Positions 6,483-36,604 of a stretch of DNA of 36,604 bases are shown piece after piece (within the stretch, counting starts at the first letter, position 1; each line of letters starts with the position of its first letter). The translations under genes were made by a program, and so were the position numbers. The stretch is from Chloroflexota bacterium. GTDB taxonomy: Bacteria; Chloroflexota; Dormibacteria; CF-121. The notes beneath the pieces are model-generated. The model worked only from the letters and a program-made list of their open reading frames with translations. It made no database searches and was not told where the DNA came from. The stretch covers positions 1 through 36,604 of the forward strand of contig VBID01000130.1 of assembly GCA_005880615.1 (NCBI GenBank). The letters are read 5' to 3'.

Positions 6483-6525
6483 CCCCACGCTGAGCTAGTA
6501 GCTGCCGGTCCAAATCCGGAGTGCC

Positions 6526-6548
6526 GGATTCGGGCTGAGCCCGAATCC
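6526..6548. repeat. 23-bp perfect palindrome at the left edge of the MITE-like element
   Basis: GGATTCGGGCT and AGCCCGAATCC are exact reverse complements separated by a single G. The right arm is the start of the element at 6538. The left arm looks like the remnant right end of a second copy, since the intact copy ends GGATCCGGGCT. With the overlapping hairpin at 6513-6530 it may also end clpX transcription. Confidence 0.7.
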
Positions 6549-6716
6549 ACCGAGTCGAACTTGCATCTCGGGCGCGGATGCGGCCGATCCGGGCGTCGTC
6601 TCCTGCGCGCGTTCAGTCACGCATCGACGGATGCGCTCCTTCACGTGCTCGTCGCCTCCTTCGGCTCGGCGCGCCCCGCATCCCGATCTGCGTCGTCCGA
6701 TCGGTGGATCCGGGCT
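6538..6716. mobile_element. MITE-like element with terminal inverted repeats, intact copy
   Basis: The left end reads AGCCCGAATCCACCGA (6538-6553). The reverse complement of the right end (6699-6716) reads AGCCCGGATCCACCGA, giving 15 of 16 identical positions. The body of about 179 bp contains the inverted pairs GCATC/GATGC and CGGAT/ATCCG and the hairpin CGCATC-GACG-GATGCG (6620-6635). Closely related sequence recurs three times after lon (36076-36604), and a sub-module follows rsfS. No transposase is present and no target-site duplication is obvious. It is a short non-autonomous repeat. The minus-strand ORF 6495-6719 and the 5' extension of valS on the ORF track both fall in it and are probably not translated. 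Confidence 0.75.
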
Positions 6717-18705: not shown

Positions 18706-19113
18706 ATGACGCCCCTTCAGCTCAGCCGGCTGGTTGCGGACGCCGCGGCTGAGAAGAAGGCGCGGGACATCGAGCGGATCGACATCCGCGAGCGCACCAC
18801 CATGGCCGACTACTTCGTCATCTGTGAAGGTGACACGGACCGGCAGGTGCGGGCCATCTCGGATGCGATCACCGCGGCCGCCGAGGCGAAGGGGATCCGA
18901 CCCTTCCATGTGGCGGGGTATGCCGATGGGTCGTGGGTGGTGCTGGATTACTCGTCGGTGATCGTCCACGTGTTCTTGCCCGGCGAGCGCGCCTACTACG
19001 ACCTCGAGACCCTGTGGCGATCGCCCGCCATGCGCGAAGTCCGCTCGCGGCGTTCGGCCAAAGAACGGGTGCCAGCCACCACCAGTTCCAGGCGACGCGC
19101 GGCCGGCCGGTAA
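18706..19113 (+). CDS. rsfS: Ribosomal silencing factor RsfS
   Basis: RsfS binds L14 on the 50S subunit and blocks subunit joining when nutrients are short. The 135-residue protein contains the family core: DIERIDIRERTTMADYFVICEG, TDRQVRAISDAI, and WVVLDYSSVIVHVFLP followed by YYDLETLW. The last 30 residues are a basic Arg/Ser-rich tail beyond the usual end. The gene follows nadD as in many bacteria but has its own candidate leaderless promoter. Its stop is followed within 15 nt by a tandem copy of the dispersed repeat module. Confidence 0.95.
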   Translation: MTPLQLSRLVADAAAEKKARDIERIDIRERTTMADYFVICEGDTDRQVRAISDAITAAAEAKGIRPFHVAGYADGSWVVLDYSSVIVHVFLPGERAYYDLETLWRSPAMREVRSRRSAKERVPATTSSRRRAAGR

Positions 19114-19127
19114 TCGGTCTCCTCACC

Positions 19128-19237
19128 TGAGCCCGAGGCCGCCGGCACAAACTCGACTCTTGGGCGCGGATGCGGCCTGAGCCCGAGGCCGCCGGCACAG
19201 ACTCGCATCTTGGGCGCGGATGCGGCCTGAGCCCGAG
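19128..19237. repeat. Tandem 50-bp repeat (module A of the dispersed element), 2.2 copies
   Basis: Two nearly identical 50-bp units (19128-19177 and 19178-19227) start TGAGCCCGAGGCCGCCGGCA and end GCGCGGATGCGGCC. A third copy breaks off after 10 bp. They differ at only a few positions. The same 50-mer occurs at 36123-36172, where it runs on into the rest of the dispersed element. The repeat lies between rsfS and the small ORF at 19278. Confidence 0.8.
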
Positions 19238-19240
19238 TGC

Positions 19241-19273
19241 TAGCATTCGCGCACAAACTTGGCTCAAGGAGGG
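19241..19273 (+). promoter_or_regulatory. Promoter -10 and strong Shine-Dalgarno for the 22-aa ORF
   Basis: TAGCAT (19241-19246) follows the repeat directly. AAGGAGGG (19266-19273) lies 4 nt before ATG 19278 and is one of the best ribosome-binding sites in the window. Confidence 0.5.
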
Positions 19274-19277
19274 CGCG

Positions 19278-19346
19278 ATGCCAGATAAGGGGAAAAGCAA
19301 GAGCGGCGGCAGCGTCAAGAAAAAGAAGGCCGCCAAGAAGAAATAG
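19278..19346 (+). CDS. Very small lysine-rich protein (22 aa)
   Basis: This ORF is too short for the track. It encodes MPDKGKSKSGGSVKKKKAAK plus two more lysines, with 11 Lys in 22 residues, and ends in TAG. Four signals support translation: a consensus Shine-Dalgarno at proper spacing, a candidate -10 upstream, an intrinsic terminator 18 nt after the stop, and no overlap with any other gene. It thus forms a complete single-gene unit. A nucleic-acid- or ribosome-binding role would fit the charge but is inference. I know of no named family. It could instead be a leader peptide or part of a small RNA. Confidence 0.6.
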   Translation: MPDKGKSKSGGSVKKKKAAKKK

Positions 19347-19364
19347 TCGGGTCATCGTGACCTA

Positions 19365-19392
19365 GGGCCTGCCTGAGGCGGGCCCCTTTTTT
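19365..19392 (+). terminator. Rho-independent terminator
   Basis: GGGCCTGCC-TGA-GGCGGGCCC forms a 9-bp stem (one G-T pair) with a 3-nt loop, followed by C and TTTTTT. It is the clearest intrinsic terminator in the window and ends the small-ORF transcript before pucR. Confidence 0.92.
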
Positions 19393-19406
19393 GAAGCCTT
19401 CCCGAG

Positions 19407-19423
19407 TTAGGCATTTCGCCTAA
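19407..19423. promoter_or_regulatory. Inverted repeat upstream of the PucR-type gene (possible operator)
   Basis: TTAGGC-ATTTC-GCCTAA is a perfect 6+6 inverted repeat. It lies where the -35 region would be for GATAAT at 19443-19448. PucR-type regulators often control their own or neighbouring genes, so this is a plausible autoregulatory site. Confidence 0.4.
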
Positions 19424-19446
19424 GTCGACCGGGTCGCTGTGCGATA

Positions 19447-21186
19447 ATGCCTTTATCCGGCCGGGCTTTCGGTCTGCCGGCACAAGGAATGGCGACAGCA
19501 CCCCCCAGAACCTCCGGATTGCCCCACCTGAGCGTGGAAGATGTCTGGCGGGGCGCCCTACCGGAGGGCACCGAGCTGGTCGCCGGCAGCGCGGGGGTGC
19601 AGCGCGAGGCCGTCTGGTGCAGCTCCCTCAAGGCTCGGGCTCCCGCCTTCGAGCCCTTGCGAGGCGGGGAGCTGGTGCTGGTCGACACCAGCCTGCTCAC
19701 GCTGGTCGATCCGCGATTGACCCTGGTCCGGTTGCTGGACGCCCTGGCAGCCCAGGGCGTGGCGGGCCTGGGCCTGTCTGGCGTCGCGACCAGCGAGGCC
19801 CGGCAGCGGGCCGACGCCCTCGGGCTTCCTTTGTTGGTGCTGCCCCCGGGACATGTGGTCGAGGAGGTCGCCGACCGGGTCCTGCGCTTTATGGTCGAGC
19901 GACGGTCGGAGCTGCACGAACGGGCGCAGGACTTGCACCGGCAGCTCAGCGAGCTGGCCTTTGCCGGCCGGGGGCTGGCGGCGGTGCTGCGCCGCCTCAC
20001 CGAGCTGATCGAGGCTCCAGTCGTCCTGGAGCACGGCGGAACTATCGAGTACGTGGCCGCCGGCCGGGACCGCACCCTGCCGGAGGCCATCCGGCAGGCC
20101 ATTGCCGCGGAGCGGCCGGACCTGGAAGCCCAGCTCCGGGAGGTGCCGCTGAGTGCCTTCGACCCGCCCGTGACCGCCCGCCCCCTTCCCGGAGGGACGA
20201 GCCGCCTGGTTGCTCCCATCCTGGTGCAGGGGACAATCGCCGGCTTTCTCTCGATCCTGGGGCAGGACGGCGAGCTGTCCGAGCTACACCGGCTGGCCGT
20301 GGGGCGAGCGGCCAGCGCCTGCGCCATCGAGCTGGTGCGAACGCACGCCGCCCGCGATGCCCGCGACGAGCTGGAAGAGGAGGTGCTCGATGTGCTGGCC
20401 GGCGGACGGCCCGGGTCCATGGCGGCGGCCACCGAGCGCGCGCGGCGCAAGGGGGTCGACCTGAACAGTCCCTACGTCGTGTACGCGGCGGGGTCAGCGG
20501 CGCCCGGACAGGCGGCGGCCATCCGGGGGGCGTGGGATCGAAGCCTGGCCAGCCGGCGGTTGGCCGCGCTGGTTCGGGAACGGGGCAGCGTGGTGATTGC
20601 CCTGGTTGCCCTGGGCCGCCGGGCCGCCGACCCCAGCGGGCTGGCCCATGATCTGCAGCGGGCCGCGCAGGGCGGGAGCGCCGCCGAGATTGCGGTGGGG
20701 CACGGGCGCGTCCGCCAGAGCCCGGCCGACGTCAGTGCCGCCGTGCGGGAAGCCGAGCAAGCCCTCAGCCTTGGCCGCCGGCTCTTCGGTGCGGGCGCCG
20801 TGGTGCCGTTTCGTAACCTCGGCCTCTATCGGCTGCTGGCCGGACTCGAGCCGTCGGCACCGCTGCGCGAGTACCACGACGAGATGCTGAGCGAGCTGAC
20901 CCGGCGGGATCGGGGCGGCGTGCTCCTGCTCACCCTACGGGCTTACCTGGCCTGCAACGGCAGCCCGACCGACGCGGCGGAACGCTTGCATCTCCACCGA
21001 AACACGGTCCTCTACCGGCTGGGGAGGATTGAGGAGATCGCGGGCCTGGATCTGCGCGACCCCGAAGTGCGTCTCAGCCTGCACCTGGCCCTCAAGATCG
21101 AGGACGTCCTGACGACGGGATCAGCCGCTATTCCAGCCGAGCGCGCAGCGACGCCGGAAGCTCCGGGAGGTAAGGCCCGACCCTGA
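19447..21186 (+). CDS. PucR family transcriptional regulator
   Basis: This 579-residue protein has the PucR layout. An N-terminal purine-catabolism-type domain (from LPHLSVEDVWRGALPEGTELVAG, about residues 24-150) is followed by a helical linker and a GAF-like middle region. A GGDEF-related CdaR-like region (about 400-470) comes next, and then the C-terminal PucR helix-turn-helix (LACNGSPTDAAERLHLHRNTVLYRLGRIEE, about 510-545). Family members respond to nitrogenous or other small metabolites; the ligand is unknown here. The first ATG overlaps a GATAAT box, so the true start may be ATG 19489. The 3' end overlaps the minus-strand SGNH gene by 59 nt, so the two converge. Confidence 0.88.
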   Translation: MPLSGRAFGLPAQGMATAPPRTSGLPHLSVEDVWRGALPEGTELVAGSAGVQREAVWCSSLKARAPAFEPLRGGELVLVDTSLLTLVDPRLTLVRLLDALAAQGVAGLGLSGVATSEARQRADALGLPLLVLPPGHVVEEVADRVLRFMVERRSELHERAQDLHRQLSELAFAGRGLAAVLRRLTELIEAPVVLEHGGTIEYVAAGRDRTLPEAIRQAIAAERPDLEAQLREVPLSAFDPPVTARPLPGGTSRLVAPILVQGTIAGFLSILGQDGELSELHRLAVGRAASACAIELVRTHAARDARDELEEEVLDVLAGGRPGSMAAATERARRKGVDLNSPYVVYAAGSAAPGQAAAIRGAWDRSLASRRLAALVRERGSVVIALVALGRRAADPSGLAHDLQRAAQGGSAAEIAVGHGRVRQSPADVSAAVREAEQALSLGRRLFGAGAVVPFRNLGLYRLLAGLEPSAPLREYHDEMLSELTRRDRGGVLLLTLRAYLACNGSPTDAAERLHLHRNTVLYRLGRIEEIAGLDLRDPEVRLSLHLALKIEDVLTTGSAAIPAERAATPEAPGGKARP

Positions 21187-36077: not shown

Positions 36078-36604
36078 CCCAGATCCACCGAGTCGAACTT
36101 GCATCTTGGGCGCGGGGCGAGCTGAGCCCGAGGCCGCCGGAACAAACTCGCATCTTGGGCGCGGCTGCGGCCGATCCGGGCGTCGTCTCCTGCGCGCGCT
36201 CGGTCACGCATCGACGGATGCGCTCCCTCGCGTGCTCGTCGCCTCCTGCGGCTCGGCACGCCCCGCATCCCAATCTGCTTCGTTCGTCCGACGGCCCCGG
36301 GCTCCGGGTGTCGTCTCCTGCGCGCGCTCAGTTACGCACCGACGGGTGCGCGCCTGCGCGTGCTCGTCGCCTCCTGAAGCCCGAATCCACCGGCTCGAGC
36401 TAGGATCTCGGGTGCGGATGCGGCCGATCCGGGCGTCGTCTCCTGCGCGCGTTCAATCACGCATCGACGGATGCGCTCCTTCACGTGCTCGTCGCCTCCT
36501 TCGGCTCGGCACGCCCCTCATCCCGATCTGCGGCGCCCGACAGGTAGATCCGGGCGCCGCTCATCTCGCCGCGCGTCCCAATCTGCGTCGCCCGATCGGT
36601 GGAT
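36076..36604. mobile_element. Cluster of MITE-like repeat copies after lon
   Basis: This 527-nt gene-free stretch is almost entirely dispersed repeat. A left end AGCCCAGATCCACCGA starts at 36076. Module A lies at 36123-36172 and runs into the body. Three body copies carry the hairpin CGCAYC-GACG-GRTGCG at 36207-36222, 36335-36350 and 36460-36475. The middle copy has CGCACC/GGTGCG, a compensated pair change. Another left end AGCCCGAATCCACCGG lies near 36379. The window ends at CGATCGGTGGAT, the start of a right end like that at 6699. The track ORFs here (36061-36273, 36155-36403 and others) are translated repeat, and I see no gene. Confidence 0.75.

Follow-up and report, generated by a model that had tools for sequence, protein, structure and literature searches.

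Lysine-rich mini-gene between rsfS and a PucR-type regulator gene

The locus described here raises the question of whether a frame of only 22 codons, nearly half of them for lysine, is a gene in its own right, and what its product could do. It lies in the 36,604-nucleotide contig VBID01000130.1 of a Chloroflexota bacterium (assembly GCA_005880615.1); this whole stretch of DNA was analyzed and is referred to as the window. The gene order over positions 18706-21186 is rsfS, mini-gene and PucR-type regulator gene, all on the forward strand, with the following features:

18706..19113 (+): rsfS, ribosomal silencing factor (Pfam PF02410), the upstream neighbor
19126..19225 (+): dispersed repeat, two 50-bp units; a third stretch, diverged, extends into the promoter region of the mini-gene
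19238..19246 (+): extended -10-like box TGCTAGCAT, lacking a -35 element; tentative promoter
19266..19273 (+): strong Shine-Dalgarno sequence AAGGAGGG, 5 nt from the ATG, counted from GGAGG
19278..19346 (+): mini-gene ORF, from ATG (19278) to TAG (ending at 19346), encoding the 22-aa peptide MPDKGKSKSGGSVKKKKAAKKK
19349..19363 (+): small hairpin GGGTCA/TGACCT between the stop codon of the mini-gene and the terminator
19365..19392 (+): intrinsic terminator with a 9-bp stem, a 3-nt loop and a T6 tail (stem-loop 19365-19385)
19443..19448 (+): GATAAT, likely the -10 box of pucR itself; TGnGATAAT precedes pucR in genus g4 relatives too
19489..21186 (+): PucR-type regulator gene (PF07905, PF17853, PF13556), the downstream neighbor; comparison with relatives indicates ATG 19489 as the likely start, while the longest frame begins at 19447

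An earlier note, made from the sequence alone, had described a complete mini-gene at this position, with lysine as half of its residues, a -10 box, a near-consensus Shine-Dalgarno sequence and a strong intrinsic terminator of its own. The coordinates of the gene proved exact, and its completeness is supported both by its own signals and by an architecture that recurs elsewhere; the ribosome-binding site and the terminator were found as described. The peptide is indeed Lys-rich, the exact share being 10 of 22 residues (45%), with one Asp, no aromatic residues and a net charge of about +9. Gly or Ser occurs where Pro might stand, Ala is scarce, and Pro is absent beyond residue 2. The -10 box is the weakest of the signals and is considered tentative, since its TAGCAT recurs in copies of the neighboring dispersed repeat that have no known mini-gene. 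A resembling box, ATGCTAGGAT, is located upstream of the mini-genes L047 and L048. The region 3' of the mini-gene folds better than its shuffled versions (z -3.1).

The window contains 232 ATG frames of 15-50 aa, of which the runner-up to the mini-gene has 13% lysine. Simulation of 300 first-order Markov windows yielded about 95,000 such frames, none of which combined a length of at least 20 aa with at least 40% lysine. The class of genes considered in further analysis comprises the stand-alone Lys-rich mini-genes of the phylum, with a Shine-Dalgarno sequence, 18-25 codons, at least 40% lysine, a Lys-rich C terminus and their own terminator. The window gene combines a Shine-Dalgarno sequence and a short Lys-rich frame ending in KKK with its own intrinsic terminator, and hairpins follow the stop codon in its cousins too.

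The -10-like box of the mini-gene overlaps a relic of the 50-bp dispersed repeat, which has 46 matches in this genome and is also present at positions 6525-6585, 36096-36172 and 36373-36425 of the window. The repeat is hairpin-forming (GCCCGAG...CTTGGGC, GGCCGC...GCGGCC), its arrays commonly end in GCGGCCGATCCGGGCGTC, and the element is REP-like.

The locus in related genomes

The earlier note had proposed that the same peptide be sought downstream of rsfS or upstream of pucR in relatives. It is absent there: a search of 60 related genomes returned only the window copy and one match with an E-value of 0.96, located inside a 297-aa frame, and in the four inspected relatives of the same family the rsfS-pucR gap of about 150-250 bp lacks the mini-gene unit. 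Loss of the frame with retention of the terminator and flanks, named in that note as the refuting outcome, was not seen, because the whole unit is missing rather than the frame alone. Either this lineage gained the unit, therefore, or the others lost it. Since relatives keep rsfS beside pucR without it, sequence comparison identifies the window mini-gene as a lineage-specific copy beside a dispersed repeat.

A conserved mini-gene in the same family

A search that did not require the N terminus of MPDKGKSKSGGSVKKKKAAKKK revealed a Lys-rich mini-gene, MAAKKKAGGKKKAAKKSSKKK, in genus g4. Each of the 18 family genomes covered, that of the window among them, has an ortholog in syntenic position before a PNPOx-like gene (named by inspection); these orthologs were located via this neighbor and not via the peptide. 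The copy in the window's genome, on another contig, is a second unannotated Lys-rich mini-gene with a GTG start, VPAKKKAGGKKKAAKKSSKKR (G000:C209:3592-3657, L248 of the family set L234-L251). The aligned copies of this C209 type carry a terminator-like hairpin, CAGCCGG...CCGGCTG. Their codon changes comprise 12 synonymous and 2 non-synonymous ones (expected synonymous fraction 0.21, p ~5e-7), a test that, like the others below, applies to the conserved cousins and not to the window copy.

Upstream of the C209-type genes lies a leader of some 116-126 nt (GCTTCCGGTACCCGGCC...GCGGCCGACCGGGAGAAT), whose conservation exceeds that of the coding part. A strong consensus fold (-57.7 kcal/mol) is predicted for it, with almost zero covariation, because the leader hardly varies. 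L231 and L233 have no match in Rfam, and the C209-type leader is possibly a new cis-regulatory RNA. In genome G003, about 500 bp upstream of the L231 mini-gene, a duplicate of the conserved leader is fused to the front of another short frame, which ends in ...FRCRGCGLYYETCGDDSRCP; this duplicate adjoins a ribonucleotide-reductase-like gene.

No such long leader is visible upstream of position 19278, so the window gene was not assigned to the C209-type orthologous set, whose frame is conserved at the same locus in relatives. It would rather be a second copy of a kind that the family also carries in conserved form, the two being possibly linked by descent.

Mini-genes in other lineages

In another Chloroflexota family, f3, at least 27 of 41 genomes contain mini-genes of the MAKKKAAKKPAKKAAKKTSKKK type, some genomes having two, and a phylum-wide search added families f32 (MPAKKKAAKKSTKKSSKKK type, with two in several genomes) and f45; these pattern-based counts are lower bounds. 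Families f2 and f4 yielded no Lys-rich mini-genes of this kind. Synonymous and non-synonymous codon changes occur in ratios of 11:2 and 13:1 in two f3 subsets. The f3 genes are often located between alpha/beta hydrolase and ImuA/ImuB-like genes (named by inspection). They have a long conserved leader of their own, GGTTGCCACCACAGAGGC... (L214-L230, L034), unlike that of the window's family; the Rfam L20_leader model gave only weak scores in f3, far below its gathering score. An SOS-like box, CGAACATCTGTTCG, is present downstream of the L034 unit, and L226 and L230 contain tandem mini-genes. Unrelated neighborhoods in different lineages show this same architecture, down to the hairpins past the stop codon, and the next gene is often convergent, which points to a product acting in trans.

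Other Chloroflexota families contain peptides of an M-x-D-K type, MGDKAKGKGKQLKKPKQPKEKK and MGDKNPKNAQKKDSQKKDAKKK. The matches listed in the contig scan included many AT-rich chance ones, and only in-frame Lys-rich ones were used; these come from Omnitrophota, where the peptides are MGDKNPKNKIKKTKAGKKK-like, and from Bacillota, Elusimicrobia, an archaeon and Kouleothrix. Because DK and the final KK were part of the search pattern, these residues carry no weight as evidence; the Lys-rich middle was not selected for. Hairpins follow the stop codons of many of these genes, some with clear T-runs, and their neighbors differ, several being convergent. In a Bacillota MAG, the peptide MPDKGKSKSGSTKKGKDKGSKKK shares its first ten residues, MPDKGKSKSG, with the window peptide, and the codons of this segment differ by 4 synonymous and 0 replacement changes. 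Among the relatives of that Bacillota genome the peptide was found only in the genome itself, and this copy is thus also sporadic. Because low-complexity 22-mers cannot prove homology, the likeness of the window peptide to M-x-D-K and KKAAKK peptides may have arisen by convergence. A phage origin was also considered and gained no support, since viral contigs gave two N-terminal look-alikes, both in proteins that are not Lys-rich.

No family in the Pfam and NCBIfam profiles matched, even at E-values up to 10, although such searches may overlook weak matches to 22-mers; PDB contains no match to the mini-gene peptides and Rfam none to the window mini-gene. In the open literature, exact searching for the family N-termini returned nothing, although small-protein catalogs, of which global ones exist (e.g., PMC11364881), may contain such sequences. 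Genes so short and of such low complexity evade gene callers, profile libraries and trypsin-based proteomics, and nevertheless show syntenic conservation and a strong synonymous bias. If translated, their products would be among the smallest conserved bacterial proteins.

Proposed function and alternative explanations

We consider the window locus to be a real, independently transcribed protein-coding mini-gene whose disordered peptide acts in trans on polyanions, with a probability of about 0.6. The mRNA would be short, about 140 nt, with a probable start near position 19253; it would be translated from the strong Shine-Dalgarno sequence and would end at the terminator of the unit. The 22-aa product is expected to stay disordered and could bind DNA, rRNA/mRNA or polyphosphate, which would make it equivalent to a Lys-rich tail of AlgP, HupB or histone H1 that stands on its own. 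Transcription, translation, action in trans and polyanion binding are inferred for the window gene; the binding of nucleic acids or ribosomes suggested in the earlier note is plausible for so basic a sequence and in view of the conserved cousins. A trans-acting polycation is favored by the self-contained unit, the extreme positive charge, the lack of a conserved neighbor across lineages and the amino-acid selection in the conserved sets.

A dedicated ribosome peptide, docking on rRNA in the manner of bTHX or L36 rather than binding polyanions in general, would agree with the size and charge of the product, which resemble those of bTHX, with the adjacent rsfS gene and with the wide distribution of this kind of mini-gene. 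It is nevertheless unlikely, given the empty profile and PDB searches, the variation of neighbors between lineages and an unordered Lys/Ala/Ser/Gly composition lacking the aromatic or Arg residues at fixed positions that an rRNA-docked peptide should show. The frame could also be a chance or relic ORF; a low-complexity, Lys-rich stretch would then close a dispersed repeat, and the terminator would serve some other element. The lineage-specific occurrence of the unit and the extension of the repeat into the promoter region are consistent with this, but no simulated frame was equally Lys-rich, the Shine-Dalgarno spacing is ideal, the terminator fits the unit and the same architecture is under purifying selection elsewhere, making chance an improbable explanation as well.

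Less probable still is that the functional molecule is a small RNA, with the ORF secondary or the RNA serving both functions. The short transcript with strong hairpins, the ability of the start-codon region to pair with a segment past the stop codon and the conserved cousins' leaders, which exceed the coding parts in conservation, would suit such a role, whereas the whole transcript of the window gene folds only moderately better than shuffled sequences (z -2.2), the cousins show coding-type substitution and Rfam offers no match. The least credible reading is a leader peptide, in which the position of the ribosome on the ten Lys codons would control the terminator and thereby pucR. Attenuators classically consist of a short ORF rich in one residue before a terminator, and by inspection the ORF segment GGCCGCC can pair imperfectly with a terminator arm. 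Such attenuation implies a downstream gene that lacks its own promoter and needs read-through, but the putative GATAAT box lies past the terminator and, judging from the DNA, the same type of box precedes pucR in relatives without the mini-gene. PucR is not a lysine gene, and other mini-genes have different, often convergent genes downstream. The terminator also remains intact in the predicted fold, and attenuation was rejected as the leading idea.

Returning to the free polycationic peptide, a wider picture can be tentatively proposed, which we regard as possible rather than probable: many bacteria, at least in Chloroflexota and several other phyla, would have one or two genes dedicated to free, polylysine-like peptides some 20 residues long. 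Such genetically encoded factors could act in a polyamine-like or H1-tail-like way, tuning the condensation of nucleoid, ribosomes or polyphosphate, under conserved leader-RNA control in several lineages. The window gene would then be an additional version, acquired recently.

Comparison with known systems

Like attenuator leader peptides of the trpL and hisL type, the mini-gene is a short ORF rich in one residue and followed by a terminator; it differs in the likely pucR promoter past this terminator and in its non-conserved neighbors. With bTHX it shares the character of a tiny, basic, stand-alone protein, but it lacks both a profile match and fixed docking residues. HupB/HupS of Actinobacteria is an HU protein with a Lys-rich tail, whose repeated Lys-Ala motifs serve nucleoid compaction; the mini-gene peptide has no HU fold, and its gene no link to an HU gene.

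The kind of molecule is rated as already known, that of Lys-rich disordered polyanion binders, and the mini-gene is not a new category. The tails of AlgP (KPAA repeats) and PhaF and the H1-like bacterial proteins are Lys/Ala/Pro-rich disordered polycations (PMC9239181), and the KKAAKKPAAKK of the f3 cousins resembles one segment of such a tail. KPAA peptides of AlgP bind DNA, and the AlgP tail spaces polyphosphate granules (PMC9239181). The composition of H1-like, AlgP and HupB tails is similar in the cousins, whereas the window peptide has Gly/Ser for Pro and little Ala. In contrast to the AlgP, PhaF and H1-like proteins, the mini-gene "tail" makes up the entire protein (21-24 aa), has gene signals of its own and lacks a folded domain. 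If translated, such mini-genes would allow one to test simply whether DNA, RNA or polyphosphate is organized by free polycationic peptides and not by the tails of larger proteins.
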